Shown here: one piece after another, positions 22,901-61,547 of the stretch
Position numbering within the stretch: position 1 is the first letter of the stretch
Layout of the letters: the number at the start of each line of letters is the position of its first letter
NCBI GenBank assembly: GCA_900095095.1
Contig: FMBT01000449.1
Coordinates: forward strand, 34,715-98,714
Length of the DNA: 64,000 nucleotides
Source of the DNA: Fragilariopsis cylindrus CCMP1102
Taxonomy: Eukaryota > Bacillariophyta > Bacillariophyceae > Bacillariales > Bacillariaceae
Direction of reading: 5' to 3'
Notes under the pieces: model-generated
The model's database searches: none
Told to the model about the DNA's origin: nothing
What the model saw: only the letters and a program-made list of their open reading frames with translations
Made by a program: the position numbers and the translations under genes

Positions 22901-23168
22901 CGGCGCTGACGAGATGGACGATTCACTGATCAGAGTGCATTCGCACGATGCGATGAAGCCAATGGGACATGATTTCCGTCAACGATACCAACAACCACAA
23001 CACCATCATTCACAACCAGCTCAACCACAAACGAATCATCATCATTCGCAGCATCAAGATCACCATCAACAAACGCAATCTTCACCACAACCACAGCAAC
23101 AGCAACAGCAACAAACCTATCATCACGAATCACGCGACATGGACTGGGAAGAACATGCAGGGGAATAA
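19932..23168 (+). CDS. DUF6824-domain protein with Pro/His/Gln-rich tail
   Basis: Residues 30-125 match the DUF6824 block common in diatom proteomes: NDVLCGRGGNINSHRGNEQF, then YLTARFKREKRLIA and GYWYDIGNEKARDKTSQALR. Function is unknown; the basic, helix-like block followed by low-complexity tails suggests a nuclear or regulatory protein. A Gln run, a Pro/His/Tyr-rich stretch (about 175-330) and a long Asn/His/Gln/Ser-rich tail follow. The frame changes twice. Near 20980 one added A would join ...VSTIFG to NSATSAITSQVK. Between 21440 and 21480 a one-base excess separates ...SSSSFTDVA from the frame holding HRMAVALQHQED. That motif echoes RRMAMALQQQEN upstream, so the second frame is truly coding. 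Introns of 58-59 nt (CAG|GTAAAA at 21002; AAG|GTATTA at 21484) would also restore frame; I prefer indels. About 1,078 aa if corrected. Confidence 0.8.
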
Positions 23169-28507: not shown

Positions 28508-30760
28508 TCATCGGATTCGTCGTCGCCTGAGAAGCTTCCGAAGAAGAAGATTCTGATGATGCAGAGTTGACTCCATTACCAACGCCCGATGCCTCTGTGG
28601 TATCCAATGTGGCACTTGAATACTTTCATCGTCTTCCCCGTCAGAATTGTCTTTCTTTTCTTTCATTCGTTTCTTCTTATGCTTGGCACGGATACGTTCT
28701 CTTTCCTCTTGCTTATCAAGATCCTTCGTTTTCTCCAACCGCTGTCGAACTTGCTCCAAGTAACCATCATTAGCTCCACGCAAAGCTTCCGCTACTTCCT
28801 CGTTGTCAACACTACCATCTTCGCTATCGTCACTACTATCATGTTCCGCCTGTAACATAGTTGGTTGTGCTGTTCCATCTTCTTCAAAGACTGTATGCTT
28901 ATTGAGATCGGTGTTACCACCATCAATTCTGATCTTTTTTGGCTTTCTTGGTTTTGCGAATGACAATGGAACATCTTCTTCTTCGCCAGTGTCGATTGGT
29001 TCATGTCGTGCCTTGACCACTAGAAGACCGTCATCTTCATCATCTTCATCTACTTTACCGATAGTTTTCATCATTTTCGCTTCTGATCGTTCATTCTGTG
29101 ATTCTCGTTTCCTCTTCTTTTTCTTTTCTTCCTTTTCTAATCGAATCTGTTCCTTAAGTTTTTGCAATTTACGATTGACATTCTTAACTACTCTTAAACC
29201 ATCACGACTAGATACATTTTCTAACACTTTTTCCAGGTCTCCTGGAATATTTGGCAGTCCAAGTGAGTGAGCATATTCCTCAAGATGAAAGTCCCGTATT
29301 TGTAAATCACTCCATATACCATCCTTGGGCAAAAGAGACATTGATCGTACATACGACCAGAATGCTTTTTTCGCCAGTGCATACAACGTATTGTGTTCAG
29401 CTACCAGTGAAGCTGAACGTTGAGTGACCAACATAGTTTTGGTAGGATTGATCGACTTCTTCTGTAGATTCGTCTTTAATTTTTTCTCTTTCGCCTGTTT
29501 ATTCTTCTGTATGAACGATTCTTCCTCAATCGGGTCAAGCAATAAGAGTGCCTGTCCGTCTTGTTGAAAACGCGCTGTCCGTCCAACTCGATGAACGTAC
29601 ATATCATAATCCTCGGGTGCATCATTTTGGACAACCCAATCTACGTTTGGAAAATCAAGACCACGACTTGCAACGTCTGTGGCGAACATAACCGAGTATG
29701 GTGTGGTTGTAAACTTATCATAAACTTGCAATCGTTTCGTTTGAGAAAGTTTCCCATGAATTGCCAAAACACTCAATCCGGGCCGTAATCGACAAATAGA
29801 TCCCACGCGTGTCGAACTTGACTACAGGTAGCAAAAAAGACAATAGTCTTACACTTGAGATGGCTTTTTAGAAAGGAGTATAAGCAGTTCAATTTGTGTT
29901 CGACGGGGACTAATACATAAGCTTGTTTGAGTCGATCGGGAGTTGTCATGGCCTCGTCATCGTGGACACCAACATATTCAACCGTTTTGCGATTAATACT
30001 TAACGTTGCTAAATGTTTGACGTCCTTAGTTTGTGTAGCACTGTAGAGTAATGTTTGTCTTGCTGTTCCTTGCGGAAGATAATCTAAGATCTTAACCAAT
30101 TGATCACGGAATCCCATATCTAAAATACGATCAGCCTCGTCAGGACTAACATTTGTAACGAGTCGACATTAAAATATGGAGTCTGTTCTAAATGCTGCAA
30201 AAGCCGTCCCGGTGTACAATGAGGATATTAGTTGTTGGAATCGATTGCTGTTCTCTAGTAAAATCATTTGTGTCCATATTCTGTTTGTTTTTATGTCGTC
30301 CACCCATTAATAATCCCAATGAAAAAGTGTGTTGTTGTCCAATTTTTCGTAGAACAGCAAATATTTGACCAGCCAATTCTCGAGTTGGTGATAAAACAAT
30401 CGCACCAACACCATCGTGGGGTGTCCAACGTTGTCGGAATAATAATTCAAGTAAGGGGATCAAAAAGGCTAAAGTCTTTCCTGAACCTGTTTTGGCTGCT
30501 CCTAAGATGTCTCGTCCAGCTAGTGCATGTGGGATACTCCCCGACTGGATAGCTGTCATAGTTGTATATTTATTATTTTCTAATCCCTGAAGAGTAGCCC
30601 GTGACAAAGGCTGAGATGCGAAAGATACAACTGAGTTCTTAGCATGGGCAAGACTACCCCGTGCAGGAGTTTCTTGTTCAATACGGGCGTTAATCGCGGC
30701 AATCTCCTCGGAGGGAGAAAGCCTCTTGAAGCTCTTTTTCTTGTGCGATTTTGTCACCAT
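28508..30760 (-). CDS. DDX10: DEAD-box RNA helicase DDX10/Dbp4
   Basis: Nucleolar ATP-dependent RNA helicase needed for small-subunit rRNA processing. Motifs in order: Q motif region [21 protein letters not shown] (I), SPTRELAGQ (Ia), the TPGR and DEAD segments, SATQTKD (III), then [20 protein letters not shown] (V) and HRVGRTAR (VI). The [14 protein letters not shown] block and the basic/acidic tail are typical of DDX10/Dbp4, not of DDX54. Three one-base contractions break the frame: near 30218 (ATT-TGT, before TPGR), near 30141 (CTG-GAC, just at DEAD) and near 29795 (TTT-TGT, before [14 protein letters not shown]). Restoring one base at each gives continuous family sequence, so sequencing error is much likelier than three lesions in an essential gene. 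The C-terminal end is uncertain: an acidic frame ending in NNDMDVL continues to about 28460. Confidence 0.9.
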
Positions 30761-32630
30761 CTTACCTGCAATATAGTTGAATAGATTATTTATTTATAAT
30801 GAGGATTGCAGAGCACAGAGCAGACTACGGACAACACACTCCTCAATTCAATAATAGGAAAGGGTGTGTTTGTTCTTTATTAATTAATTGTTGTGTACAT
30901 TTTTATTGACGATTGTCGTGTTGGGGTATGCGATTTCGTGATTTTTTATTGAGCGCCGCGAGTTGGTTGGTTGTGAAAAGGGGGGATTATGGACGCAAAA
31001 ACAAAATCATCCCCCCTATTCTAGAATATTATTTATTCTGTACTTGATACTTTGCATACTTTACTATGACATGTCCTACTACTAATAGCACTGTGCCGTA
31101 GCACCATGGTTTATACGACATGCATGTACTAGTACAGCCATACGGCCGCCAAGTAATGAAACGACGTAAAGTGCGAACAAAATGCTCATTCTGACTTTTT
31201 ACCCGTTCTTCATTTTACACTTAAATCCAAGGCATTTTTTGTATCAACAATCCCTACCACTTGATGATACTATCATTGATTAGGATTGATGACTTCTCCC
31301 AGGTTGACTATTCATCAATTGTTTGACAAGTATCAACCATTTTAATCCTCCACTCTTCCCGTCCAACTTGGCACATAGCATCACTCATGTAAGCAGAGTC
31401 CAAGACAACACAACAATTACTGATGCTACTATGGAAATGATGCTATCTTCATTATTACATTCAACAACTGATTTGCTCTCATTATGAACAATGGTTTGGC
31501 TAAGATGGACTACAGGACAAAACATTGAGTTAGAATGGATATCTCATCAACTGGTTGTGTATTCTTATGTCTTTGACAGCACTATCAAAGATGACGGATC
31601 ATAATATTATAGTTGTTTTGATTTGTTTGTTTGCAGGGATGCAAACAAACAATAATGCCTTAGTATAGGAGACATCATCAGTACAATTTATTTTACAGAT
31701 AGTCTATGTTGGTATGGAGGTTATGGTACTGTCAGATTTAAAGCTTGACATACATGTTGCTGTTGTTGTTGTTGTTGTTGTTGTAATATACTACTGTTGT
31801 TGTTGTTGCTCCACAGACAGTCTAGCCTTAGATAGTACAAGTAGTATAGCAGTCTTGTGTCCCTATTTGTGCTGGTGGTCACTCACATCATAGCTAGCTA
31901 GCTTCTATATGGAATTTGGTAATATCACACTCTACTAGCTTCCAACTTTTCTCTGCATTAATTCATCTGATTTAGTTTAGTTTAGTTTAGGAGAGTTTTG
32001 ACTATTATTTTTTTAAGTTTTAGTAGTAATGGCTAATGATAAATTTGGAGTTTCGAGATACCGTGAATGATAATTACATAGTAAAATCATGATAAAATTA
32101 GGTGTTAAACCGTATCGTAAACAAGTTTCAAACAAGACAAAATAATTATTTTATTTGTGTATTGACTTCGCTTATTTTTTGGCTGCTAACAAGACCATTT
32201 CTCTCACACTTACTTCAATTCCGATGTAAAAAAGTCTTCTCGAAGCCTCTCAAAAAATTTTTGAGACATATTGATCGTGGAGAAGAATAACTTTTCAAAG
32301 CTTAATAGCCGCCGCCAGCATCGAAATAAAGAAGAATAGAAATAGTAACGGCGTTTGTCGTTTAAAAATTTATGATGACCTATTAAGCTCTCATGTTCAT
32401 ATCACGTTGACATTACGTCTCAAATTTACTGTACGGTATTCAATGAAAGGACACGACGAGAGAAGAAAATACACGAATTTACATTGATTTATGTTGCGTA
32501 CTTTTTTATCTTCATAAAATATATAGTATATACAGAGAAAAGTAATACAAGGTTTCTCATCCTATTCTTTGTCGATAACAGTATTCTGTTCATCATCATC
32601 AAAAAGCAAACGCAAAAGCCATAATAAAAG
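30761..32630. other. 1.9-kb divergent intergenic region
   Basis: Between the divergent DDX10 and MORN genes. Holds a TTG/GTT trinucleotide array (31757-31812) and a TAGTT pentamer run (about 31974-31990). No supported ORF longer than ~60 codons, and no RNA gene recognised. Confidence 0.5.
31757..31812. repeat. GTT/TTG microsatellite
   Basis: Two blocks of GTT repeats interrupted by ATATACTACT. Confidence 0.85.
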
Positions 32631-35235: not shown

Positions 35236-37331
35236 TCAAGGTTCCAGAACATCTAGGTCTAATTGTCGCCACGATGTGGGATATTCTCTTGAGTAAAAAT
35301 TCTGTTTCACTGCACCATATTCGTGCATCCTTGTTTTAAACTCCTCCAGAGCGTAATAGTAGCTGTTCGGTAGACGACCTTCGCTGTAAGCTTTGGCATT
35401 CGTTTCGTGATCCGGAAGCATCCCAATCGGATTATGTGTTTGAGAATGATAACCACGTATTCGATGAATGTAACCCGAGAAGGTACTAAACCAACAACCA
35501 AAAAAAGTACGTCCACGACTTGCAATCAATTGATCGATCATACCATAATAATTAGGATTGATGTCTCCCAATATATCTTTGAAATCGTCCAAAAATAACA
35601 ATTTCCAGCCATGTTTCTTGAGAGGATCAAAGAAACTCTTATCTCGTTCATCTGTTCCGATGTAAACCGTATTTCCCACTGATATTTCATCTTTCGCTAC
35701 AGCCACAATTTCCGCAGCGGTCACCCTTGTCTTTTTGTATTGGAAGTCGCCTCGTCGAATATGAAAAGTATCGAATTGATGCAGTTCATCACTATTTTTG
35801 CTACTCCGAATCGCATGGACGATTCTAGCTGCTGCACATTGAATTTCATCTATATATCTCACGTGATCTCTCACGAATCGTTTCATCCACAAATCCGTGT
35901 GCCAATCTTGGAAGAATAAAAAGGCATAAAAATGCACGAGAAGCCTTCCGCCTGTTTCAGCTTTAGATTTCCCATGAAAATGAATTATAGATGCCTCTTG
36001 AAGAGGCTTGTCGTATATACATAATTTCTTGCGCTGAGCTAATAATTCTCTCAGTCGATCCTTTGTGGATGCGTCGACTGGAGTAGGTTTGTTAATGTAA
36101 TGTTCAAATGCCATTTTCCCAGCGAAATCTCCTTCTTCTTTCAAAATCTCACTCATTGACTGTTGTAGCATGTCGATATTCTGTTGATCACCGTCTTTTG
36201 GAAATGTAGCTATACAATGATTCGGATCCCAATTCGGATCGACTGCTATTGAACGCAACCACGGAGCTAACTTGCTTTTGAAACCAGTATCTCCATCCCA
36301 CTTAGTCTTTTTGTTGTCGGGAGGGAAAACAATCTTCTGCGACTTCATGTCCTTCGTCTTTCCCATGGTTTCTTCTAGAAATTGTTCCATAGTAATAATA
36401 TCAAATCCTGCATGTTCTTCTGCCAACTCTTGTAGAGGGAAAAAATCAGCAAAATTAAAGGTCGCTTGCCCTTTCCCAAGCAAATACATTTTTTGAGACG
36501 GTGGTAGTACAAGTACTCGCCCCATCGCCAAAGCCATCGTCAAAACAGTTTCCATACTCATTCGAATATTATTCCTATGAACAAGAGGAATGAAGCAGGG
36601 ATTTTTAACAGATTAGCAATGATAAATAGATATTCCAAAATTCGTCCGTTCAGAGATAAAAGAGAGAGCGAAAGATATTCGATATACCGCACTTACCAGC
36701 CACTATACAAAAAATAATGAAGTGGAAGGAAGAAGTTTGAACAAATTAGAAACGACGAAATAAATTCATTTTAAAGGAGAGGGAGAGAGATAGGCAAAGA
36801 TTCGTGCACGTACCCTCCATCCGATTCGAATGTCATATATTGGCGTTCATTTTTCTTCAAAAATGGTGATTCCCATTCATTGTCTTTAGGTATATCTTCC
36901 CAAAAGACCATCTCTTGTACGTCTTCTGCTCGGTTTGGACCTCCATGCGATTTGCATTCTAATCCGGCAACAGAATGGATCATATTGTCATGATTAGATG
37001 CAAGCTTCTGCTTTGCTACCACACGCACTGCTGATGATGATGGTGCTGCTTCTTGCGGTATGCCTGCAATAATTGAAGGCGAATGCTGTTTTTTTGAATA
37101 CAAAACCTTGTTAGGTCCTGCGAAATTATCACGAAATGACGGCGAAGAATCCAATCCATCGAGACTTGAAAAATCGTGTAAAAAATTCAGCAATACTGTA
37201 GTCATGCAGCATCCTGTCAAAAATGCTGCTATGACGTGAAGACGAGTGTAGATGAAACGACGACGGCGAGTCGTTTTTGCCGTCAAGTCATTTTTCATAG
37301 TAGCTACTTCTGATTTCTGGACGAGGGTCAA
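35236..37331 (-). CDS. O-fucosyltransferase-like glycosyltransferase (paralog B)
   Basis: Same family as 8896-11407. Exons 36814-37331 and 35236-36574, intron 36575-36813 (donor GTACGT, acceptor CATAG), 618 aa. Basic N-terminus, membrane anchor about residues 29-48, stem, then LECKSHGGPNRAEDVQEMVFWEDIP, which mirrors DCKAYGGPSPEDAQEMVYWRDIP of paralog A. Catalytic motifs: TFESDGG|GNNIRMSMET across the splice, FHIRRGDFQYK (HxRRxD), VYIGTDERD, and FFGCWFSTFSGYIHRIRGYH near the C-terminus. The single intron interrupts the GGGxNN motif. Paralog A has no intron there, and this gene has none at paralog A's four positions. No frame breaks. Likely a Golgi type II enzyme; acceptor unknown. Confidence 0.83.
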
Positions 37332-42949: not shown

Positions 42950-45900
42950 ATGACTGGTATTATGGTACCGTATGTCACGATGAAGTCTTCCTCTCTTGTT
43001 TCGTTTGTTCAACCGATCCTTTTAGTGGTGGTAGCAGTATGTTGTAGTTCCTTCCCTTCCGCCACTGCCTGGGAAGATCCTCAAGTCGAATGGCTCCGTT
43101 CGAAACCAAATGGATTTTTTTCAGATAAGATTTCATTCCACCAATTAGATCCTAACGATGCAACTAGCTCATATGGTATGTTTGCCTCTGAAGGTATCAA
43201 AAAAGATGAACGTCTCATCGTAATTCCTCAGGTTGCATTGGTTACGTCTCGTGGTACGGATTTGAATTGTGATACGGTGACAATGCTTTTGGAAGAACTA
43301 GAGAAGGGTAAAGACTCGGATTATTATCCGTACATTAATTATATGTTTGGGGATGAAACCGCACGAGGTAAAATGCCCGTTGCATGGAGTAAATTAGGGC
43401 AAAATCTTCTATCAGAAATAATCGGAGACAGTTTACAACCAAAAATATTTAAGGATCATATATGTGAAAAATTCTGTGGAAACGTACCGGAAGACGTAAA
43501 GAACGTGTCTCAACTAGAACAAGACGCCTACCTCTTCATGATTTCACGATCATGGGACGATGTTATGATACCGGGTAAGTTATATTCTCAAAAATAGCGT
43601 TATATAAACAGCATGTTGGTTGTTCGACTGTTGTTGTTGTCTTCTTCATACTTGCACTATTATTATTACTATTAATCACTTTATTTTTGTGTATTATCTA
43701 TATTTATCAACTCAATCTTGCTGTTGTTGCTGTTGTTGTTGTCGTCTTATTTTACTTATCGCCGCCTTTCCATCCATCGACCCAACAGTCTACGACATGA
43801 TCAATCACCGTAATGGAAAATGGCGAAATGTAGAAGCCACCTCGGCGCACGTGGGGGAAGATATCAGAGTGTTTGCTTACCGCGATATCGAAGCCGGGGA
43901 ACAACTTTATATGTCCTATAATGAATGCGAAGATGAAGATTGTCGTGGGTTGAAGTACAAATATATAACTCCAAGTATCTTAGTTGATTATGGGTTTGTT
44001 GAACAATACCCGAGAAGGTTCGTCCTTGTAGACAATTCTCAATTAGTTGCCGAAGTAGATATCGACGAAACGACAGGTGAAACATTCTTGACATGGCCCT
44101 TAGGTACCTATCCCGACATGGACGAACTGAATTATATTCATGCTCAATTGAAACGTTTGAGCGATTTGGATGATCTTATTTCCAAAGGTGTGGCTAAGTT
44201 GGACTCGGTTCACGAACGTGATGTTATTACAGGATATCATCATGCATTGAAAGAAGTTATGGAACTTGCGATTGCTCATCGAGAGGATCGTACATTTGAT
44301 ACTGCGACGAAAAAGTATGACTCGCTATCCGAACCGAAGGGAGCCGGTGTGGATGGATTAAACATTGAAACTTGTTGGGATAATCCCACCGACCGAGACT
44401 GGCACACGAACGATGAGTCCGAATCGCAGTATCAAACTATCGAATTTACTTATAATAAGGATAACGATAATACCTGCTTGCAGTTAAGTAGTTGGCTTCA
44501 AACATGTACCAATTTCCGACCCCATTATCACGAAGCCTTTGTCCATGTTCCGGCGCAATACGTTGATGACGTTAAGAGAGTAGTTTTTTGGGTGGTGGTG
44601 ACAATATGATCTTACATGAGATCTTGAAATACCCTAATTTAGAGCTTGTGGTTGGTATGGAACTTGATCAGCAAACCGTTCGATCGTCTTTCAAAAATCT
44701 TGGTACATTGCCTTACTTCGACGATCATCGTGTTAACTGGTGGTTTGGTGATGCTACCAAGTCGTTGTTTGCCCTACCTGAATCATACTTTGGTAGTTTT
44801 GATCTTGTCTTGGTCGATTTACAAACTTTGTTGCTGACGCTCTCAAGGTAACTGACAAGTTAACTATTATGGAAACAGCCATATTATTGATGAAACAAGA
44901 TGGTGGTGTAATCGCGAAGAACGAAGACTTCAATACTCGTACCAATGTTGGTTTTGCCAAATATACCGTTGATTTAGAGTACCATGATTTGCCTCATATT
45001 TGCCAGCAATCGATTACGATGGGAAGCAATTCGATTGATTTTGTCAAAGCATTGCCCAAAGACCATGGCGTTGAGACTAAGGCTATTGATTTGGCGGGTA
45101 GCGACAGCGCCGATCCATATCATGCCTGGTACAGTTACCGTCAAACAGTCCGTGATACATGCAAAAATGAAGATACGAATGATGACGCATCTTCTAAATC
45201 GAGCGAACAAAGAGGTATTTTGGTTATTTTAGAGGCAGAAAATATTAGGCGCCCCCTTGGACCTATCACCGAAGTTAAAGCCATGATTAGCGCTGCTGTC
45301 AAAGAAGTAGGCCTCATGGAGATTTCGGTATCGAGCGGTAGCGAAGATAGTATATTTTTCGTAGTCATGAAAGAAGGATACATCGCAACCCGTGTGTTTG
45401 CTGAAGAGAAGTATATTGCTTTTGACGTGTTATTATGGGATAAATTAGATCTCATCGAAATTGTAAACGAGGTATTGATCAAGGCCGTGGGCGGCAATTC
45501 TCAAAAGTCATCTTCGTCCTTTCGCTTCGTAACGGGAGGCATGACTGGATTAGAATCTTCACAAAATGATATGTTGACTCAGATTGCGATTGACACAGAA
45601 AAATTATTATGTCAAGATGCAGCTTCTGATGCAGCTTCTACAGATACGGAAACCACAATCCAGAATGATACGACTCTTATCCTCCATGAATTGATTTCAT
45701 CTTTGAAACCACTTCGCAAGGATGGATCAACCTCAGTCGTTGGTATTTTTTGTGGTGACGAAACCAGTGCATGCTCAAGCCTAGAAACAGCCAAGGAACT
45801 CGAGTCCGCAAAAGTAATCGTGGTTCCCATTTACACATGCAAATCTCTTGATGACATGCCCGCATGTGAAAAGGAAACGGTAGAAAGTATGAAAGCTGCT

Positions 45901-47184
45901 GTCAAGCAACATAAAAAGCTAGATGTTGTGGTCATGGACGCTAATCTTCCATTTGCAATGGGTCAGATTATCGAAAGTATATTCAGCAACAAAATTACCC
46001 ACCACAATCTTATGGAAGGGTCTCAGTTGGTACTGACTCCTGTTGTTGAAGAGGAGAATTGGAGAAACGTACTGATAGATCGTTTCCGGACCGATATTGT
46101 CCTTTTTAATCCTGCATATCGTGCTGACCTTCAATTTTTTGTGGTAGAATCAGGCAAGAAAGTATCTCATTCCAAATGGAGTCTTTTTTCTTCAGGAGAC
46201 CAATCTTTTTTTAAACGTTTGTCCTCTGTACTATCGATTATCAGAGAAAAGGCTAATATCGAGTCAGAGGTAGAAGAGGTAGCAAACGGAATTGTCAATT
46301 ATATACCAGACTTTAGTCCCTCAAAAGTGTTTACGGACAGCGACTACGACAAGACTCGTTCAAAAGCACAGTGGTCGACCCAAAAACCAATGGGCCACCA
46401 GACTATTTTTCAAATGAACGTCCAGCCTCCTAAGACTCGCTTGGATGAAGGCGAGTCGGTGTTGGCAGAACATGAACCAGGTCCATGGGATGTTAAGTAC
46501 GGCGAGCTGTGGTGCAGGAATATCTAGACGATGAAATGTATTTGGTACTTTATGAGGGGGATGAGTTCCCGGAGCCGATCAGTCGCAGCCAGATTCGTAA
46601 ATTTTCAGATGCAGATAGAGACATGTCGACAACGTTTGAGGTTGGAGATCTCATCTTTTACCAGAATGATGAGAGAATACACCGGAATGGTGTTATTTCT
46701 CATGCTGAAGACGATGGCACCTATTCACTTTACCTTCTCAATACATCTGGTACCAAACTTTATGGCGTTTCAAGGAACAAGCTGATGCATCAGTTTGAAA
46801 GCGCAGATTTCTATCAGGAGATTCCCTCTTTATCCGCATCTAATCTACTTGGTGCCTTCGAAAAAACGCTCAAAGAAGAAGTCGCTGGAGTCACCTATAG
46901 AGTCCTTTCCTATTGGAGCGGGAGTAATAATGACCGCATTCTGGAATGAGGGACATGCCATTCTAAAATGGGATGGTATGAAACGCGTCGATATCAACTT
47001 TTTTACATTCAACGAGGATATGGATATTAGGCTTGTTTTCCAGGACGCTTTTTGCGACCAGATTGACTACATGGTAAGCGTTGCGCGGGATGAGCATCCC
47101 AGAGGCTACGGGAGTATTGTTAACTTTGAAAGTGAAACAAAAATCCTCCGCACTGGGTTAAGCATAGCTAAACAAGAAAATTAG
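42950..47184 (+). CDS. Multidomain fusion: SET, spermidine-synthase-like, AdoMetDC-like, Tudor-like
   Basis: Exons 42950-43574 and 43789-47184 (ATACCG|GTAAGT ... CAACAG). About 1,340 aa after frame repair. Signal peptide from the Met at 42980 (ILLVVVAVCCSSFPSATA|W). SET domain: GMFASEGIKKDERLIVIP, YYPYINYMFG, then across the splice IPVYDMINHRNGKW and IEAGEQLYMSYNE. Spermidine-synthase-like Rossmann domain: HYHEAFVHVPA, RVVFWGGGDNMILHEIL, LVVGMELDQQ, FDLVLVDLQ. AdoMetDC-like module (about 45080-45500) with FFVVMKEGYIATRVFAEE, lacking the usual Ser/His processing site. Second Rossmann-like region (45740-46410). Two SH3/Tudor-like repeats (46450-46790). Second AdoMetDC-like module with GVIMTAFWNEGHAILKWDG (46900-47060). 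Four one-base breaks: 44591 (G), 44828 (T), 46508 (T, all undercalled) and 46909 (C, overcalled). Each repair restores domain sequence. Catalytic status of each module is inferred from motifs only. Confidence 0.78.
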
Positions 47185-49319: not shown

Positions 49320-50756
49320 TCAACTTTTTTCGTTATCGACTGAATCGCTATCAACAGCCGTGTTATTATCTTCTAAACTAAATTCATCGTCCAGGGCTGC
49401 TGTTGGATTTTGGAGATTGCGTCTCCTTTCTCTCCAGCGAAAAAAGCAACAGCAGCACATTATTAGAACAAGAATAAGTAAAGGAACGAGCCAAATCATA
49501 ATTCTGATCTTCTCTTCAATCAAACATGTATCACTCGTAGGGCCAATCTGTTGTTCGTGAGGATCAATGTAATATCCAGCAAAATTTCCATCTTTATCTT
49601 CCATCCAAACGGCAACAGCCATGTTTCGATCGTCACATGAGCTAAAATATTTTGTGTCTTGCCACATTGTTGTGCAATCGGCGTGCCAAACAGACGTCAA
49701 GCTATTTTGCTTTGAAAATTCGTGAACATCACATGTTTTGCTTCGTTGCCTATTGAATTGCTTTGATTTTTTTGCAACATGCCATCCAGCACGGATGGTG
49801 ACGTTTGGATCGCACGGAGCCACGGTCCAGGATTTGAATTCTGATCTCCAGCATTGTTCGGGGAAACATTCCTCCTCGAACGGTTGTGCCAACTCAGGTT
49901 GTTCGGCGTAGGTATCCCAGCAACACTCCTCGGTGCAGTAAGCGTTGAACCACTGGCACTCGTCGATACAATAGAGCCGATCTTGTCTCAAGCTTTTAGA
50001 TGGGTAAGCATAGTAGCAGTTTTGGTCCTCCTGGAAATAGCCGCCGCAAGAGGCACAGTTTTGTGTTCCGGCAAAGTCAAACTTTTCGCGTTGTCCCTTG
50101 CAATACTTATTTGCGAACGGCTCATCACAAGCGGCGAGAATATCAGGTAGATTCGTCACAAAGGAAGGAGGTAGAAGCACTCTATCAATCTCATAGATGA
50201 CGTTTCCATTAGAAGTCGCAATGGTGGACATACCATCATTGACGACGACACCGTTGACGGTAACAATAGATGTATTCCCACTAATCTCGACGCTTTCTCC
50301 GTTCATGGTCGGTATCATTTTTTCATTAATAAAGTCGGAAGAAAAGACCACGGTACCTTGGATGACATGGTAGAGCAAGATGGATGCCAAATTGTTGGTC
50401 TTATAGTAATCATTATATTCGTTATACTCTTTTTCGTTAGTGCCAAATAAGAGACATTTCGTTGGAACCGTATATCCCAACGTTTCGAAAGCAGCCAACG
50501 AGGGAACAAATATGGTAGAGGGTCCATTGGATGCAGATAAAGCATCTTTGAGACTGGCCACGTATTTTGAGTAATGGTAAAACGAAACCCAATCTAGAAA
50601 CTCTGCATCCCCGCGGATATCTGGATCTTCTAAAAATGTGCTATAGGGAGCAGTACTGCTTACTGACGAGACTCCGGCTCCAGTAGAGTCACTAGAGACG
50701 TTCGACATTGCAAGCAATAGAAGAAGCAATCGAAAGAAGGCTGATCGAACAAACAT
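49320..50756 (-). CDS. Fasciclin (FAS1) Cys-rich type I membrane protein
   Basis: The Met at 50756 is preferred to 50801 because it gives a proper signal peptide (FVRSAFFRLLLLLLAMSNVSS). One FAS1 domain follows: LKDALSASNGPSTIFVPSLAAF, then LLYHVIQGTVVFSSDF, ISGNTSIVTVNGVVVNDGMS and NGNVIYEIDRVLLPP, the H1/YH/H2 order of fasciclins. The next ~230 residues have some 20 Cys (CASCGGYF, CIDECQWFNAYCTEECCW, CFPEQCW and others), then one membrane helix (MIWLVPLLILVLIMCCCCFF) and a short basic/acidic cytoplasmic tail. FAS1 proteins mediate adhesion to surfaces or matrix; in a diatom this could serve cell-surface attachment. About 478 aa, single exon, no frame break. Confidence 0.88.
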   Translation of the reverse strand: MFVRSAFFRLLLLLLAMSNVSSDSTGAGVSSVSSTAPYSTFLEDPDIRGDAEFLDWVSFYHYSKYVASLKDALSASNGPSTIFVPSLAAFETLGYTVPTKCLLFGTNEKEYNEYNDYYKTNNLASILLYHVIQGTVVFSSDFINEKMIPTMNGESVEISGNTSIVTVNGVVVNDGMSTIATSNGNVIYEIDRVLLPPSFVTNLPDILAACDEPFANKYCKGQREKFDFAGTQNCASCGGYFQEDQNCYYAYPSKSLRQDRLYCIDECQWFNAYCTEECCWDTYAEQPELAQPFEEECFPEQCWRSEFKSWTVAPCDPNVTIRAGWHVAKKSKQFNRQRSKTCDVHEFSKQNSLTSVWHADCTTMWQDTKYFSSCDDRNMAVAVWMEDKDGNFAGYYIDPHEQQIGPTSDTCLIEEKIRIMIWLVPLLILVLIMCCCCFFRWRERRRNLQNPTAALDDEFSLEDNNTAVDSDSVDNEKS

Positions 50757-50801
50757 CGTGTTGTTCAGGGGTACCCCTGATGGTGTTGTTTTTGACGACA
50801 A

Positions 50802-51260
50802 ATATAATATTTTTTTTTATGATATTGAATTTGATGAGAAACAGAAGTTCGAAATAAGGGGCGTAATTTTTTTAATTAATAACTCGCCGACTAATCACCG
50901 TTATTATTATTGTTGACTAGAAATCTTTATCTTTTTATTAATTGGTAGCCTCCGGCATGTGGTGCGTCTAAGTTCATTGCGTGCACTTTGCTGAAATACT
51001 GTACACAGTCTCTCTCACTCTCTCATTCTCTAATAATAGATTGTGACAAATAATACAGCATACCCTGACATGCACAGACACTGGCAAACACACAGACAAA
51101 CACACAGCACAAATACAAAGACATGAAAGACAAAGAAGACTGTTGGAACAAAAATGTGTGTGCTATACTGTGTAATTGTATATATAATAGTAGATAATTG
51201 TAATTGCTTATGTAATTTAAAAATAGTAATGCTGTAACGCATAGAACATGAATTATATTT
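50802..51260. other. Intergenic between fasciclin gene and Helitron
   Basis: 459 bp with CA-rich runs (CACAGACAAACACACAG near 51090-51105). Probably contains the Helitron's 3' end, but I could not identify a CTRR-plus-hairpin terminus by eye. Confidence 0.4.
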
Positions 51261-54200
51261 TTATGTTGGGAATCCCATGTATCTGTTTTCGTCTATGTTT
51301 GTGTCAGGTGATTTTGTTGCCCTGAAATGTTTGTGGAAGTCAAGCAAATCCTTTGACATTCCCCTTGTCTTTTGATGAATCAACTTGTGACGCACAAAGA
51401 TTCCTTTTAGTGATCTGCATCTAGAAAGTACTACATAGATCCAATTATCAGTGTAATCCCATGTAGATATCAATATGTTTTCAATTGTTCTGCCCTGCAG
51501 TTTGTGAACTGTACGGGCATGGGCTATGTTTAATGGAAATTGAGTCAACTTGATTGTTCTCCTAAATCTTTTTGTGTTGTAGTTTATAGTTGATTCAATG
51601 GGTGTTGGAAAATTGGCACGTGCATAGTAATTGTTGGCTGTTAAGCTAATAATTCTTGGTGCTTCACCTTCTTTTACGTTTTCATCCAGGTACACTTCAA
51701 TTGATTTAAGCTGATCTACGCATGCACTTCTTACGTGGTACCCATCAATCACTATTGTTTTCAAATCAGTAATAGATATATTCTCTTTGAGAGTGAGTCC
51801 CTTAAATCTGCACATGGAGCCATTAGCTAATGACTTTTCAACATCGATGTTGTCGGTTATCATCACAGGACAACCTGCATAAAGTTTCAACATTGGATCA
51901 ACTCCTCTCCCACCATTTCTTTTGACGTGTGCATCTGCACAAGCTGCGTATAGAATGTCCTTTCCAAAAGGTGCCATAGGAACGTATGCGTTTGTCTCTC
52001 CAAACTTTTTCCAACATATTTTAGAAGCCATGATGGACACAGTGTGCAGAGGTGGGTAGTCTGTTGGATTGGTGGAGTGTGTGTTGTGGCAAATGCCTTG
52101 AAAAAATTGCGTCATGGATAGCGCACCGATCTATGTTTGTTTTTGTTGCAATGACTATATCATCTGGTAAGTCGCTCTCGTATATGTTATTTTCTTTGCA
52201 TACAATTCTTGAGTTTATTTTTACCGAATCATTTTCTTCCAGTCCTGTTTCAGATCTGTATCGTGCACACATCTCTCCATGTTCTGGGTCCTTTGAGAAT
52301 CTATGATTTGTTTTCAATTCCAAGAAGGTGTGAACTGCTGACCACCACAATGAAAAATCCTTGAACAGAAAAAGAGGTTTTGCTCCAACAGGCTTCAGTT
52401 GCATGAAGTCTCCAGCAAACAGTACATGAAGGCCTCCAAATAACATGTGACTTCTCATATCTTTCAGCAGGTTTAAATTCTTGTTCATGGTTTCTACATC
52501 TTGTTTCTTGGCAATGATATCTCATCAATAATGATCATAATTGTGTCATTCCATTCTTCTGATTGGGTAACGACAGTACTGTTGAGTTTACATGCGCTGT
52601 GTGTAGTTTCACCATTTATAGCAATAGCTGCAGAACCTGTCAATGCAGTGACTACAATAGTCCTTCTATCAAATTTAACATTTAAATTGTCGCACAGAGT
52701 CTTGCAGTAGGTTTTTACCGTATCAATAACTTGGCTCTTTCCAGTACCTCCTGCACCAGAAAGAAATGCAATGAACTGTTTTTTCCCCTTGTGAAGCTTT
52801 AATATATCGCGTAGATTCTTGTCCCTTGTTCTCTTTCCCAGCATTGTACATTTCTCGTGAAGGGACATAACAAATGAAGATGCTATGAAAAGAAATGCCT
52901 GTTCCTGGTCCTTATCACCGCCAAATGAATGCTGAGCGTATTCCTGATGTTTTCCAGAGTGCCAGTAACATTGACTCCAAGTGCACTGCCATCTCTCTTT
53001 GTGATCACTTTGGTTACTTTGCAGTGCAAGGTTGCCAATTCCTGTGCTGTTAAGTTGTTTATGGATCGCTGCATTCTGGTGCAGTCTGTCGTCGTGGGAC
53101 TAGATGTAGTTTCTGCTGAAGGGGTGTAAATGACGGATTTTCTCTTGTTTACTGAAATGTTCTTGATCAATCTCTGGCCGCATTTCCTTGACCCTGCTTT
53201 GCTTATAATGGAAGTATCCACGGATAATTTCTGGTCTTGTGTTCTGAATGATATGTCTTCTGACCTGTTTAAAGCATTCATGTTTGTGATCAATTCCTCG
53301 TAGTAGGAATCAATTGGGTCATCTTTCTTTCTGTTCTTCTCTTCCAATGTTGCTGCCTTTGGTGTATTCGTAACTCCTTCAAGAGGATCACACGGACGTC
53401 CAGCATTCATGCTGTTTCTGCACTCCTGTATGTTCCTGAGAATGAATTCATGTTTTGTTTTTAAGTGTTTCTCCCTGATATAATGTCTAAATTTTGGTAA
53501 AAATTTGCTGCCAGACTTCAAATCTGCTATTTTGCGAAATGGACAGAAGCATATACTTGCTTTCTTTGCATTGTTCTCCAGGGCAATCATGTGGATGTCA
53601 GAATCTTGTAGTGTATCTATTCCGTCCATTGTTATTCCACCAAATGATTTGCTATCTTCAAAATCAAGGTAATTTATGCAGGGTATGTATGCGTGGAGTC
53701 TCTCTTTCACACGCAGGTTGTTATTATGTGGGTGGGGACATGCCCATTTCATGGAGCCAACGTTAGCATATGTGGTGTTGTAATGCGAAACAAAGTCATG
53801 TAGACATACATTGTCCAATTCTTCAGGCCGGTACAGGTAATTAGCAACAGAAGATTTCAGGAAGGGGATGTTATCTTCGTCGGATGTGCATTGAAAGTCT
53901 TGTATAGAGCCGTCCTCAAAATCATTTATATTAAGCCATGCAAACTTGTGAGAGAATTGGAACCTGGATGTATTTTGAACCAAGTACGATGCCATAGGTG
54001 CTGCTACTTTGTGGCTGCTTGTGAGTTGCATGACTGCTGATATCATAGCGCGCATTCCTTTTATGCTATGATCAGCAGAATGTTCCCCATCTGTGCTATT
54101 GTGGGAGGTACTGTGTTCATTTGATGATGCACTGTCCTGCTGTTGGTCCAATTGGGTTGTAGTACCATTGCTGTTCTCATTCTGACGGTGCTGCTCCTCT

Positions 54201-57200
54201 ATCTCTTGCTTTCTCAGCTCTATCAGTTTATGCAACACTTTCCTTGCCACCCTGACGTACTGGTCATTATCTTCCTTCTGTGTGTTTTTTGACACGTACA
54301 AGGTGCAGTATATGACACTGCCACCATCAACACCCGTTATGACATTTGTGTTGCATGAAAATACTGCACTGGCTACTTCATTGTGGACATTTACAAAGCT
54401 GTCAACGAATTGCCGTTTTGGTTCTGAAATGAACAGTTCTCTCTGAGTTTTGTTTCCTTTCCAATCATACCAATCTTTTGGCTTTGGATCAAATGTTACT
54501 TGTGCTCATTGGATACCTTGGTTGGTAGTTTCATTCTGCATTCACATCTGCCATTCTTGAAACATGTTCTGCGGTGGTCTGATCTGTGTAAGTTTCTCAG
54601 TGCAGTTGTAATGAAAAGAATATCCCTGTAATTAGGACTGTTCATCTCTGGTGGTATTGAATCTCCCTTCATTTGACTGACAGTATCATTTAGTAGTTTT
54701 ATTGTCATCATGACCTGCCTCTTAGCTATTTTGGTGCTGTTAGACCAGAGATCGTGTATGTCCAAGGGCCCACCCACATCAGATGGGTCAATGCAAATGT
54801 TTAATTTTTGATCAAGGCTTTGTTGTACCAGATCTTCACTTGAGTATTTGTAGTTGCATTTGGTGCATCTGAGTATTGATTTATCACCAAATTTGGTGAC
54901 TCCTTTTGGACATCTTAATTCTCTGATATCCTGGTTGCAGCATGGCTCGTGGTTGTCCCGCAGTAGTTCCTGGCACTCAGAGCAGGACATCGTATCAAAC
55001 GAATCATGTAGTTTTGCCGACATTACCTTTCCAGCAAAGTCCTTCAACTTTTCAGCAAATTCACCACGGCGCTCTGGATCTGCAAGTGCATCTAACATAG
55101 TGTGCCAGTCTTTAACCCACAGCAAGAAATGAGCATGGAGTGTTTTTCTACCTATGAAAAAGAAAGCAAATTTAAGAAGGAGTTAAGAAGTCAGGGGCAT
55201 ATATACATATTTGTGTGACATTCTAGAATAGAAAATACAGAAGGTAAAGGGAAATGGTGTGTCACATACTTTGCTCTTCCACCGCATAGCACCACCCATC
55301 CAAATTGCCAAACAAGCCTCCCTCCTCACTTATGTTGTCTTGGGTTGCTTTATCCCACCCCAAAAAGTGTCTAATAGTTATGGCAATCACATTTTGAAAA
55401 TCAATTGCGCACAGTCCTGGATAAGTCATCCTCACACTACTGCAGTCAATAACAAATTCTGATAGAACCTCGTCGCTGCTATCCAATGATGGTGGATCTT
55501 CATAGTTCAAATCTTTGTAGTCAGTCTTGTTCATTGACATTATCTTGATCCTAAAATTGATGTCATCGTTGGGTGTTATTGTGAATAAACAGCTAGGCAA
55601 ACCAAAATGGGCTATCATGCAAAACATGCTCCGACGTGCCTGTTTTGCTGCCTGTTCAGTGTGTCCCATGCATCCAGTAACTGCTTTGAGCTTTGAAAGA
55701 AACATATCCGCTGGTCCGGTCCCCTTCTTTGATGACAGGAAGTTTGCAATTGCTACTTCCAGCTCTCTTCCTTCCAGCATTCCAATCTTATATTTTTGCT
55801 CCTCTGTCAAGCGCAAATATGCACCATTCATCATCTTTTTCCTCTCAAACAAGTTGTGAATTATTGTTACAAATTCTGCCCTGTGAAAGTTTGGAGAAGA
55901 GAGCTGGACAAGATACTTATAATATCCAATTCCTTTGTTTTCATCTCCGTCAATATCAGTGCTTCCTACTCCATAAGGGAATTGAAGAGGAAATGCAAAC
56001 AAAAAATTTGCCCCTTCATAATCCTTCAGTAGGGTACAGGTGGGCCTTCCAATTAAAGTGGAACTGCCATTGAACAGGTTATCAACTGTGCTGTGCTTCA
56101 AATCAGATGCTGTCTTGCATCCCCCGTTTTGTTGAGTGGGTGAATCTGGGTCAGGGAAGATGGATGTCACCTCAAATACTTTCTCTACATTTGAATCCAC
56201 AGACTGTGCACTTTCGGTGCAATCAACCATCTCCGGTTGAATAATTTCTTTGTCTGATAATTCATAGTTTCTGTACAGGATATTATTTTCCTTCAACCAA
56301 CGAAAGGCAGCCTTTACAAACCTTGGTCGTACAGCAGTCCTATCTTTGGCCAATGCTTTCTGTGTGGTTGTGAAAGGACCCACCAGTATTACAGAAATAC
56401 TTTTTCCACTATCTGTTGTGTCTGGTTGATTCTGATTTTCATTTTCATTATTTGGTTCCATTTCAATATTATCATTGTCATCATCATCCCTGTTACCATC
56501 ATCATCATTGCTGACTGTAGATGAAGAATCACTATCCATATCTTCATTTTCTGATGATGTGATTATGTCTTGTTTGTCCAAATGAGGATCATCATCCATG
56601 CTGCTCAGATAATTGAAAACACGATTTGTCTTTTCTATATCTGAGTAGAACATACTGTGCCAACCCTGAATTGATTTGTGGGCCCCTGCTGTGTAACAGA
56701 ACATGTGCTTGTTTATTCTAGCCGGAGATATGAGTGCTAATTCAACTTCATTGAGCCTGAGGAGCACTCTAGGTGCATAACCATGCATTTTCCCATTAGC
56801 AATTGCATATTGAGGAGGTTTAGGATCTTTGGTGTCCTTTCTTTTAATTTTAAGAACTCCATTGTAGCATTCTTTACATGTCCCAAGACAGACTTTTTCT
56901 GTCCATCTTGATGACTTTATTTTGTAAGATCTGGGTGAGAGCAGAAATCCATTCAGTTCTCGGTCCTGTACACAATGCTGAGTGTATTGAAATTTCAGTC
57001 TTCTCTGGATGTGATCCTCCTTAGTTATCTCAGACCAGTCAATAGTATCTTGGTGTAAGTATGGCTTTATGACTGGGTGTTTTAGATAGTCTACTGAAAG
57101 AGCCATTTCTTCACCATATTCAATGTGCCGATCACATATCGCACATACTTTGGGGTGCAATTTATTTTCAGCATGGTGCAATAAATTGTTTCTAGCATGA

Positions 57201-58444
57201 GTAGCACTGAGATACGATTTTGTTATTGCACGGCTGGTAACTTTCATTTGAATTTGATCAGAGCTAGGAGAAGCACTCAGATCAACACTCGGTGCTGCGC
57301 TTGGATCCGCACTAGGATCTGAACTAGGAACCTCACTGGGAGCAAAGCTAGGGGCAGCGCTCGGATCAAGACTTGGGATGGAACTGGGTGCAGCACTTGG
57401 CAATAAACTTGGTTCCAAACTGGGCAAGCTACTTGGTGAAAGACTGGGACCTGCGCTTGGGTCAAGATTTGGAGCAGAACTGGGGTCAAGACTTGGAGCA
57501 GAACTAGGACCACCACTTGGAAGACCGCTCGGATCAGAACTAGGACCACCACTTGGAACTACACTTGGAAGAGAGCTGGGCAAATTACTTGGCTCCCCGC
57601 TCGGATTAGCACTTGGAATGGCACTCGGAATGGAACTTGGAAGGGAGCTGGGTTCCAAACTAGGGACAGAACTCGGTGCACCACTCGGATCAGAGCTAGG
57701 TGAAAGACTAGGAACAGAACTTGGTGAAAGACTGGGACCTGCACTTGGGTCAAGACTTGGAACAGAACTTGGAAGAGAACTTGGTGAAAGACTGGGCCCG
57801 AAGCTTGGTCTGGAACTAGGAGCAGTACTTGGGCCAGCACTTGGGACAGAACTCGGTGCGCCGCTCGGATCCAGACTAGGAGCAGAGCTAGGAGAAGCAC
57901 TCGGATCAACACTCGGTGCTGCGCTTGGATCCGCACTCGGATCTGAACTAGGAACTTCACTGGGAGCAAGGCTAGGGGCAGCGCTCGGATCAAGACTTGG
58001 GATGGAACTGGGTGCAGCACTTGGCAATAAACTTGGTTCCAAACTGGGCAAGCTACTTGGTGAAAGACTGGGACCTGCGCTTGGGTCAAGACTTGGAGCA
58101 GAACTGGGATCTAGACTTAGAGCAGAACTAGGACCACCACTTGGAAGACCGCTCGGATCAGAACTAGGACCACCACTTGGAACTACACTTGGAAGACCGC
58201 TCGGATCAGAACTAGGACCACCACTTGGAACTACACTTGGAAGAGAGCTGGGCAAATTACTCGGCTCCCCGCTCGGATTAGCACTCGGAATGGCACTCGG
58301 AATTGAACTTGGAAGGGAGCTGGGTTCCAAACTAGGGACAGAACTCAGCAAGCAAGGAGGAATACAATAAGGTAGATGGAATGCAAACTCATACCAAAAA
58401 GGCAAATGCAAATAATAAATGCTATATTCTAAAGTAATTTTCAA
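51261..58444 (-). CDS. Helitron Rep/helicase polyprotein with N-terminal PSxPS repeat domain
   Basis: Rolling-circle transposase. Exons 55270-58444 and 51261-55151 (GTATGT donor, TCATAG acceptor); about 2,355 codons after repair. Order: hydrophobic start, PSxPS repeats (57258-58350), a Cys-paired DUF6570-like region (CAICDRHI, YAIANGKMHGYAPRVLLRLN), a Helitron_like_N region (SPNFHRAEFVTIIHN, FGLPSCLFTITPNDDI), the HUH motif TLHAHFLLWV at the splice, Zn-type Cys clusters, HRRTCFKNGRCECRMKLP, the two-Tyr motif IYCTLYVSKN (about 54300), then Pif1 helicase: GAGGTGKS (Walker A, about 52760), IIIDEIS, LFAGDFMQLKPVG, HARTVHKLQG and YVVLSRCRSLKG. One-base breaks near 54500, 52937, 52511 and 52104 are homopolymer-type; repair joins family sequence. 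All catalytic motifs are intact, so it may be active. The N-terminal start is uncertain. Confidence 0.87.
57258..58350 (-). repeat. PSxxPSS repeat array with a 672-bp higher-order duplication
   Basis: About 90 units of a 12-bp Pro-Ser-x-x motif (variants PSSDPS, PSLEPS, PSGGPS, PSANPS). The block ending SSIPSAIPSANPSGEPS occurs twice, offset by 672 bp (anchor GGTTCCAAAC at 57651-57660 and 58323-58332). PS repeats are frequent in diatom surface proteins but unusual at the start of a Helitron Rep. Confidence 0.85.
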
Positions 58445-58840
58445 AATAAAAATGGTTTAAGAGTTTTAAAATATAATTTTATGAACTAAATATGAATTTT
58501 TATTTTTAGATGTAATCTTTGATCATTTTTTTCCAACAAAAAGAACAGGCAAAGAACATTGGTGTCAAGCAAAGAACATTGGTGTCAAGCACTGAAGACG
58601 TTGGTACATATCTGTGTTGTCTAGCAGAAAGAACATTTTGGAGTCATTAATATGTAATATAATAGTATGGTGATAGTATGTATATATGCAGTATATGGAT
58701 ATAGATTGTACATTGGGCCTAGAGGTAGTAGTAATCACTGCTGGCATTGAAGCAAAAGGTTTATGTAAATGTTTCCCTCTTTTAGATCCAATCATAGACC
58801 ATATGGTGGAGGGAGGCATTGCATAAAACTGAAGCAAAAG
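58445..58840. other. Intergenic with 20-bp tandem duplication
   Basis: About 400 bp between the Helitron start and the next stop. CAAAGAACATTGGTGTCAAG is repeated twice head to tail at about 58551-58590. A related GAACATTGGCATCAACATC occurs near 61733-61751. Confidence 0.55.
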
Positions 58841-61547
58841 TTAGTTAGTTTCATCTTGTTTTTCCTGTTTGATGCTATCACTGGGAAATCCAAATTCATG
58901 AACAGCATAGAATGAAAAACGGCCATCAGAGATTTTCCTTGTATAAATACCTCTGATTTCACTTAAAAGCAAGAAATCATGTACTTTTTTGCGCTCCTGC
59001 CCTTGAGGTAGGTAGTAGTTAGTCAAAACTTGGTCCACAGACTGATCTGTCATGCATTCATCCAAGCTATCAAATGGGCTTCTGGTTAGGCTGTGACTAT
59101 TATTCCATTTAGTGTAGTGCTTTAATGGATTTTTATTGCTATCAGCGCAGCAAATAGAAACTAAATAGTCCCTGAATTGTTCCTCAATAGAGATACCAAT
59201 CTCGCCATCTTTGTTGGAATATCTGTCTGAATTTGGCATAGAGATTGTAAGAGTCTGGTTGTACTCTTTGCCCAATTTAGTCTTGTATCCATTTGGGACC
59301 ATGGAGTCACCTTCATGGCTTTTGCGCTGGAATAGTAGGCCTCCATATGCAATGTCCCAATGTGACCTGGTATATTCTTGTGGAGGTGTGGCATCTCTTA
59401 GGATACGCCGGTGGATAGGCCACATAAACCCAGCAGTTTTAGAGACTTCATTTGTCAACCAGGCAACAATAAACTCTCCCTGTCCACCAACTCTCTTTGT
59501 AAACACAGTCTCTTTGTGTTGCTGACCTGGTTTTACCATTTCAGACTTGACAATGCGTTTGGACTTATAAGGGACTGGTTTCTTGAGTGCCAAAATATTC
59601 TGTTGGGACACGCCTTGTGTTTTGTGAGCTGTGAGGGCCGCACCAGATGATCCACCTTTTTGCTGCTTTGTATCAGATGAACTACCTTCTTGCTGCTTTG
59701 CATTAGAGGACCCACCCTGCAGCTTGAGAGGTGCAACAGGAGCAGCATCCTGTTAAAATATAGAAAAATAAATGAAACAGTTTTTTATTGTGAGTCACCT
59801 ACTACTAGTACTAATAATAAGAAGCATATTATATTATATTAAAAGAAAGGAAGCCTACTGGTACTAATAATAAGCATATTATATATTCAAAGAGAGACGT
59901 CAAAATCACCTGGCACCAACATAGACGAAAACAGATACATGGGATTCCCAACATAAATACACAGTACACAGTACACAGTACACAGTACACAGTACACACT
60001 ACACAGTACACAGTACACACTACACAGTACACAGTACACAGTACACAGTACACAGTACACAGTACACAGTACACAGTACACATTACACAGTACACAGTAC
60101 ACAGTACACAGTACACATTACACATTACACACAGTACATAGTACACATTACACACAGTACACATTACACAGTACACATTACACAGTACACAGTACACAGT
60201 ACACATTACACATTACACACAGTACACAGTACACAGTACACAGTACACATTACACAGAACACAGTACACAGTACACAGTACACATTACACACAGTACACA
60301 GTACACAGTACACAGTACACAGTACACATTACACACAGTACACAGTACACAGTACACAGTACACATTACACACAGTACACATTACACACAGTACACAGTA
60401 CACAGTACACAGTACACAGTACACATTACACTGTACACAGTACACAGTACACAGTACACAGTACACATTATACAGTACACAGTACACAGTACACAGTACA
60501 CATTACACAGTACACAGTACACATTACACAGTACACACAGTACACAGTACACACAGTACACAGTACACAGTACACAGTACACAGTACACATTACACATTA
60601 CACAGTACACAGTACACAGTACACATTACACAGTACACACAGTACACAGTACACACAGTACACAGTACACAGTAGGGAGGCGCACTGTGAAGACGAGTTT
60701 TTCGCCAAAAAAAAAGTAGCCGCGTGCCAACTCTTTTTTTGAGGATGCGATGCAAGTGAAAAAAATGAATCACAAATAATTTTGAATCACAAATAATTTC
60801 GCGCACAGAAACAAATGCAGTTATTGAAAACTGCAAATTGAAATTTGATATGAAATATTTTTTCGACCAAAAAAATAAATTTTCGCTGTACACAATGAAC
60901 CGAGATTAACAAGAGCCCCTAAGTAAAAAAAAATCACTTTTGAAAAGTACGAATTTTGGACCAAAAAAATAAATTTGCGCTGTACACAATGAACTGAGAT
61001 TAACACGAGCCCCTAAGTAAAAAAATCACTTCTGAAAAGTGCTAAGTAAAAATCCAAATTTTCGACCAAAACAATAAATTTTCGATGTACACAATGAACT
61101 GAGATTAACACGAGCCCTTAAGTAAAAAAAAATCACTTAAAGAAAAGTCAGAATTTTCGACCAAAAAAATAAATGTTCGCTGTACACAATGAACTGAGAT
61201 TAACAAGAGCCTCTAAGTAAAAAAAAATCACTTTTGAAAAGTACGAATTTTGGACCAAAAAAATAAATTTTTGCTGTACACAATGAACTGAGATTAACAC
61301 GAGCCCTTAAGTAAAAAAAATCACTTTTGCTAAGTAAAAAAAAATAGTTTTTGAAAAGTGCTAAGTTGAAAGTGCTTTATTCGCTAAGTTAAAAAAATCA
61401 CTTCTGAAAAGTGCATTTTTCACTAAGTTAAAACGTGTTTCATTTGCTAAGTTAAGTTAAAATATAATAATATGATAGGATACTTACGATTACCTCAGTA
61501 ACATTATCGTTTCCTTTCGTGTTATGTTTTTTGGTAGTTGAAGGCAT
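58841..61547 (-). CDS. Unrecognised two-exon gene with repeat-filled 1.74-kb intron
   Basis: Exon 1 (61488-61547; MPSTTKKHNTKGNDNVTEVI) and exon 2 (58841-59749; acceptor TTTTAACAG before GATGCTGCT) join in phase 0 with donor ATC|GTAAGT, giving 322 aa. Residues 21-70 are Gln/Ser-rich with repeated SSxxKQQ units. The rest is a compact globular region: QGEFIVAWLTNEVSKTAGF, MWPIHRRILRDA, HWDIAYGGLLFQRK and a C-terminal IRGIYTRKISDGRFSFYAVH. I recognise no family. The 1.74-kb intron contains the helicase-tail copy, the 7-bp minisatellite and a ~95-bp array. It is codirectional with the Helitron and 400 bp upstream, so it might be a Helitron-captured or Helitron-associated gene. The splice model is inferred from consensus sites and phase only. 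Confidence 0.55.
59900..59957 (+). repeat. Inverted copy of the Helitron helicase 3' end
   Basis: About 57 bp nearly identical (two mismatches) to the reverse complement of about 51259-51316, which encodes the last residues of the helicase including RYMGFPT and the stop. The copy on the plus strand runs straight into the 7-bp minisatellite. Confidence 0.9.
59957..60674. repeat. 7-bp minisatellite (ACACAGT)n
   Basis: About 100 units, dominated by ACACAGT with interspersed ACACATT and ACACACAGT variants. The long Cys/Tyr/Val ORFs on the minus strand here are translation artefacts of the repeat (7 bp is not a multiple of 3, so all frames look alike). Confidence 0.95.
60860..61350. repeat. ~95-bp tandem array, five diverged units
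   Basis: Units start with GACCAAAA near 60865, 60957, 61060, 61160 and 61252 and share GTACACAATGAACTGAGATT, followed by AACACGAGCCC and an A-run TCACTT tail. Spacing is about 92-103 bp. Degenerate TAAGTTAAAA pieces continue to about 61460. Confidence 0.85.

Follow-up and report, generated by a model that had tools for sequence, protein, structure and literature searches.

A diatom SET-aminopropyltransferase fusion protein with altered polyamine-enzyme active sites in Fragilariopsis cylindrus

A 64,000-nucleotide stretch of the diatom Fragilariopsis cylindrus CCMP1102 (GenBank assembly GCA_900095095.1, contig FMBT01000449.1, positions 34,715 to 98,714 of the forward strand; the whole of it is called the window below) carries at 42950-47184, on the forward strand, a gene that translates as a single protein of about 1,342 residues, 4 of which are X at frame joins. 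The protein joins a signal-peptide-like N-terminus to a SET domain, a spermidine-synthase-like or aminopropyltransferase (APT) domain and a module of probable S-adenosylmethionine decarboxylase (AdoMetDC) ancestry. Alignments show that catalytic residues have been lost from both polyamine-enzyme modules, which are probably non-catalytic because the Asp-Pro loop of the APT domain and the pyruvoyl serine of AdoMetDC are gone, and of the three modules SET alone has an active site that, to judge by its sequence, looks complete. We propose, with about an even chance of being right, that the protein is a secretory SET N-methyltransferase in which the degenerate polyamine-enzyme modules act as binding or oligomer-forming parts.

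The features of the gene, all on the forward strand, are as follows.

42950..43574 (+): exon 1, from the first in-frame ATG to the donor GT, with the frame open up to GTAAGT at 43575
42980..43069 (+): signal-peptide-like segment MKSSSLVSFVQPILLVVVAVCCSSFPSATA, followed by W; found by hydropathy, cleavage site placed by eye
43172..43922 (+): SET domain (PF00856, residues 75-253), intron included
43575..43788 (+): GT-AG intron of 214 bp, with the spliced product MIP/VYDMINHRNG
44415..44946 (+): APT domain (PF01564), consisting of an N-terminal strand domain and a Rossmann core
44588..44588 (+): frameshift 1, located at a run of T
44822..44823 (+): frameshift 2, within the APT catalytic loop
45256..45504 (+): first AdoMetDC-like module (PF02675 below cut-off), in which the catalytic residues are missing
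45667..46160 (+): second Rossmann-like region of the original prediction, an open frame
46433..46797 (+): proposed Tudor/SH3-like repeats, rich in strands according to a model of low confidence
46498..46498 (+): frameshift 3, a change of frame
46798..47184 (+): second AdoMetDC-like module of the original prediction, with frameshift 4 and the stop codon
46915-46930 (+): frameshift 4, inside the proposed second AdoMetDC-like module

The coding sequence thus runs through exon 1 (42950-43574), the intron (43575-43788) and a second exon with four frame changes. Placement of the intron is very likely correct, because the residues on either side of the splice junction (MIP/VYDMINHRNG) align without a gap to LIPLWDMCNH of SETD3 and MVPAADILNH of SETD6. 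The frameshifts, near 44588, 44822, 46498 and 46915-46930, each amount to one base modulo three; between shifts 558 codons run uninterrupted in one frame, and the frame is continuous from the SET domain across the intron and, past frameshift 1, into the APT domain. We regard the gene, with reserve, as real and intact despite the shifts. In line with the secretory signal peptide of the original prediction, the protein has a signal-peptide-like N-terminus with a Met at 42980, a hydrophobic core and the site ATA/W, the sole stretch of the protein with a 19-residue hydropathy mean above 1.6. Plastid targeting from ATA/W was judged less likely, since acidic residues, which speak against such targeting, follow this by-eye cleavage site.

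The SET domain, likewise predicted earlier, is recognized by PF00856 (E 6.1e-11; score 43.1 bits, cut-off 22.4). It contains the motifs D-M-x-N-H and G-E-Q-x-Y-x-x-Y that are also those of SETD3/SETD6-type methyltransferases, in which the N-H motif and the C-terminal Tyr are functional residues; both of these align to the SETD3 and SETD6 structures 3smt and 3qxy. All 11 matches among solved structures, at E up to 10, are SETD6 or SETD3 chains, the matches themselves being weak (E 0.087-0.95), and SETD3 is an actin-histidine methyltransferase. The present protein differs from these enzymes in its secretory-type start and in the polyamine-enzyme modules that follow the SET domain.

Homology of the next domain to spermidine synthases, as originally predicted, was upheld by several methods. 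The middle piece of the protein matches PF01564 (E 1.9e-9; score 37.8 bits, cut-off 22.9); a profile built from 77 bacterial APT segments covers both subdomains (65.7 bits, residues 418-596); comparison by hhalign gives an APT probability of 98.7%, with 0/60 shuffles scoring as high; and the sequence matches of this part in the PDB are spermidine synthases, at 6e-5 and up. Spermidine synthases bind decarboxylated S-adenosylmethionine (dcSAM) through the motifs GGGD, E-I/L-D and D-G/A, and their catalytic Asp lies in the loop D-x-x-D-P. In the alignments the motifs YHE, GGGD, E-L-D and G-D-A are retained, and the loop has become D-L-?-N-F. The dcSAM-binding motifs of a functional SpeE are accordingly present and its catalytic Asp is not, in a loop that contains frameshift 2. 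When motifs were counted as strings in the 73 bacterial segments of at least 200 residues (4 shorter ones of the 77 being left out), YHE occurred in 65/73, GGGD in 63/73, E-I/L-D in 64/73 and D..DP in 68/73. The length of the loop agrees with that of its relatives, the residues beyond frameshift 2 are unlike D-P-x-G-P, and alignment to the bacterial relatives revealed no PTYPTGTWSF-type motif in the APT domain.

AdoMetDC ancestry of the module behind the APT domain is probable. Its cut-out segment scores 10.1 bits against a profile of 82 bacterial AdoMetDC sequences, a value reached by 0/1000 shuffles; a longer piece gives just 7.4 bits to the same profile. A single-sequence structure model of the module (predicted local distance difference test score, pLDDT, 55.5; predicted template-modelling score, pTM, 0.52) was compared with solved structures by Foldseek, in which the third-ranking match was human spermine synthase (E 0.0051) and the eighth was Aquifex AdoMetDC (E 0.015); we assume that the former match falls on the AdoMetDC-like domain of spermine synthase. 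The catalytic residues of AdoMetDC are the pyruvoyl-forming Ser, a His and a Cys. In the alignments ESHxxIHTW is replaced by EGYIATRVF and FTC by LLW, so that Ser has become Gly, His has become Arg and Cys has become Trp, and the module has none of the three residues of a functional class 1b AdoMetDC (SpeH). The alignments therefore agree with the earlier remark that the APT and AdoMetDC active sites are altered. The single PDB sequence match of a 122-residue AdoMetDC-like piece was a weak one to ribosomal protein S8 (0.74). No relatives of the AdoMetDC-like piece were found by tblastn against phages, nor of pieces of the window in three scans of viral contigs.

Beyond this module the architecture originally proposed was not recovered. 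The second Rossmann-like region has no Pfam match above cut-off, and a second copy of the APT domain there is unproven, with 2/60 shuffles as high against the APT profile and 744/1000 in a pairwise comparison with the APT domain. Within it, 45793-45996 (+) gives weak matches to thiol peroxidases (NCBIfam 0.048; PDB 2yzh 0.042), which may be chance hits or may point to a thioredoxin-like fold; the PDB search with a 574-residue piece returned two weak matches, the thiol peroxidase at 0.042 and Roquin at 0.8. The two SH3/Tudor-like repeats lack matches in Pfam and NCBIfam, and 62/1000 shuffles score as high as their self-comparison. The second AdoMetDC-like module likewise matches nothing in Pfam, and shuffles score as high in 31/1000 cases and, with hhalign, in 16/60; a tandem duplication of the AdoMetDC module was rejected as well (250/1000 shuffles as high). 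A model of the Tudor-like and second AdoMetDC-like parts reached a pLDDT of 36.9 and gave a strand pattern only, its structure matches being unusable. These three C-terminal parts may be real but diverged. The single-protein fusion is supported for SET, APT and, weakly, one of the two AdoMetDC-like modules, with PF00856 and PF01564 above their cut-offs and PF02675 below, and is unproven for the remaining modules.

Fusions of this general kind have been described in diatoms. As cited in two later papers (PMC3820600, PMC12029483), Michael 2011 proposed a double role for AdoMetDC-APT fusions, some of which also carry a histone N-methyltransferase domain: the synthesis of long-chain polyamines and their N-methylation, so that the connection drawn in the original prediction between such fusions and diatom long-chain polyamines was already in print. 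The portions of the literature consulted further mention several fusion homologues, of uncharacterised function, in a single diatom genome (PMC6356823), three SAMDC-APT fusions in P. tricornutum (PMC10968388), 32 APT-containing fusions in Nitzschia inconspicua (PMC12803844) and one that rises with aluminium (PMC12533330); a silicifying haptophyte is reported to have yielded no homologues of the modified polyamine genes in its transcriptome (PMC4742977). Two transcriptome papers cite Nemoto 2020 as linking diatom-specific SET proteins to silica formation (PMC11554505, PMC11151724). The present protein shares with the diatom fusions of Michael 2011, a class known here from citing descriptions, a SET-type methyltransferase, an APT domain and probably an AdoMetDC-like module on one chain, the last at a PF02675 E-value of 0.0055, below cut-off; in the present copy the APT and AdoMetDC sites are degenerate. 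On sequence, the combination of modules belongs to the published class, to which the degenerate active sites would be the addition made by this copy. The exact order SET-APT-AdoMetDC-Tudor was not met with in the literature examined, whose coverage mostly leaves out subscription papers, and no priority is claimed.

Two further systems invite comparison. Animal spermine synthase has, according to the part of PMC12803844 consulted, an inactive AdoMetDC-like domain that is still needed for dimer formation. It resembles the present protein in carrying this domain beside an APT domain, whereas here the APT domain comes first and has a degenerate site of its own, and the chain also carries a SET domain. 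In bacterial AdoMetDC-APT fusions, such as the Pontibacter loci among L001-L080, both modules likewise lie on one chain: open frames longer than 350 residues make up 25/82 of the bacterial AdoMetDC set, and the five inspected carry both modules. Unlike the diatom protein, these five have the order AdoMetDC-APT and complete catalytic motifs, and no SET domain was seen in them.

We would place the protein in the secretory pathway, within the diatom class of SET-APT-AdoMetDC fusions. Its signal-peptide-like start would lead it into the secretory route, in which silica proteins encounter polyamines. There the SET domain would most likely use S-adenosylmethionine (AdoMet) to N-methylate amines, either the side chains of lysines in silica proteins or the long-chain polyamines that these carry or that lie close to them. 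The degenerate APT and AdoMetDC-like modules may bind AdoMet, dcSAM, methylthioadenosine (MTA) or a polyamine-bearing substrate and/or form an oligomer, by analogy with the inactive AdoMetDC-like domain of human spermine synthase. Production of dcSAM and aminopropyl transfer both being unlikely, SET would be the likely enzyme. A more specific version, which we rate as rather improbable, would make the protein a writer and reader in one, the inactive APT and AdoMetDC modules forming a clamp for polyamine-bearing lysines of silica proteins, which it would recognise and offer to the secretory SET domain for N-methylation. In the passages available, the diatom fusions proposed to make and methylate the long-chain polyamines found in silica are called uncharacterised or in need of study (PMC6356823, PMC12803844). 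The loss of the polyamine-making sites beside a SET site that looks whole suggests that part of the family methylates or binds rather than synthesises, a question approachable protein by protein across the family.

Several observations weigh against this proposal. 1) The match of the first AdoMetDC-like module to PF02675 (E 0.0055, 17.5 bits) falls short of the cut-off of 25, and was E 0.0071 in another run; hhalign gives AdoMetDC a probability of 7.5% over 27 columns, although 0/60 shuffles were as high. 2) No AdoMetDC was matched in the PDB sequence search with the AdoMetDC-like parts, and the 1312 Foldseek matches, none of them at or below 0.001, intersperse unrelated folds with the AdoMetDC relatives, a phosphoglucomutase standing at rank 1 and a domain of a kinase at rank 2. 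3) The conservation counts (for bacterial AdoMetDC, ESH in 82/82, ESHxxIH in 79/82 and F/Y-T-C in 80/82) favour the canonical sites because the relatives, taken from the best 80 loci of 542 stretches encoding one, were fetched by a canonical probe. 4) The catalytic losses are known from this copy alone, compared with bacterial relatives, and two or three residues of the APT loop, with frameshift 2 inside it, are uncertain. 5) The structure matches of the SET domain are weak, and a longer SET piece of 475 residues matched nothing in the PDB at 0.01.

Among other explanations, the protein might be an active machine for long-chain polyamines, in which AdoMetDC makes dcSAM, APT adds aminopropyl units and SET N-methylates the product. 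The set of domains, the published proposal for the class as it is cited and the retained nucleotide-binding residues of the APT domain would suit such an activity, which nonetheless seems to us decidedly unlikely: the first AdoMetDC-like module is without Ser, His and Cys, the second is not demonstrable, and the APT domain has lost its Asp-Pro loop and shows no PTYPTGTWSF-type motif. Given the same losses, the multi-enzyme of the original prediction, using its own dcSAM, is not supported, and the other half of that statement, by which the modules may be repurposed or inactive, is the better one. Alternatively, SET could be a protein-lysine methyltransferase and the APT-like domain a plain AdoMet- or MTA-binding regulator, functionally unrelated to polyamines. 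A domain that keeps its nucleotide-binding acids and loses its catalytic loop is what this would lead one to expect, and a role of diatom-specific SET proteins in forming silica is given in the two transcriptome papers that cite Nemoto 2020; yet the joint retention of AdoMetDC- and APT-derived modules would go unexplained, and we consider this alternative unlikely.

Four frameshifts together with missing catalytic residues could also mean that the gene is a decaying pseudogene, with genuine frameshifts and drifted active sites. Three other genes of the window bear on this point.

287-5034 (-): BRCA2 homologue (OB1 7.5e-32, helical domain 3.8e-13)
19884-23168: DUF6824 gene, continuing in another frame
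28511-30793 (-): DEAD-box rRNA helicase (DEAD 5.4e-22, Helicase_C 3.3e-21, CTE_SPB4)

By eye, in the three-frame translation, the conserved helicase runs through frames 1, 0, 2 and 1 across its core motifs, with at least three changes of frame, the last of them in an overlap without any GT..AG pair. The BRCA2 gene and that for DUF6824, a diatom-rich domain, also carry on in another frame; these changes could be introns, because GT..AG pairs occur in the listed overlaps. The assembly of the window thus seems to carry many single-base indels, and because the conserved helicase is similarly broken, the shifts in the SET-APT gene are most likely assembly errors. Given this control, and the 558-codon open frame and intact SET motifs of the gene itself, we set the pseudogene aside as very improbable.

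Some further features of the window may be recorded. In the BRCA2 homologue a run of MAMFQTAGSG-type repeats, BRC-like in appearance (PF00634 at 0.0037, below cut-off), coincides with tandem repeats at 1834-3693. O-fucosyltransferase-like genes occur in opposite orientation at 10071-10916 (+), just under the Pfam cut-off, and at 35239-36612 (-). At 51261-58456 (-) lies a broken, mobile-element-like gene set, Helitron-like by eye, with a Pif1 2B-domain match below cut-off (0.0036) and a 5' part whose open frame also takes in a region of PSxxPS repeats. The 7-bp satellite TACACAG, in about 99 copies, occupies 59958-60674 and is followed by a 94-95-bp tandem repeat at 60860-61326. Finally, 49323-50816 (-) encodes a fasciclin-domain protein (5e-17) with, by eye, a hydrophobic start, a region rich in Cys and a membrane segment at the C-terminus, possibly a membrane protein of the cell wall or of silica vesicles.

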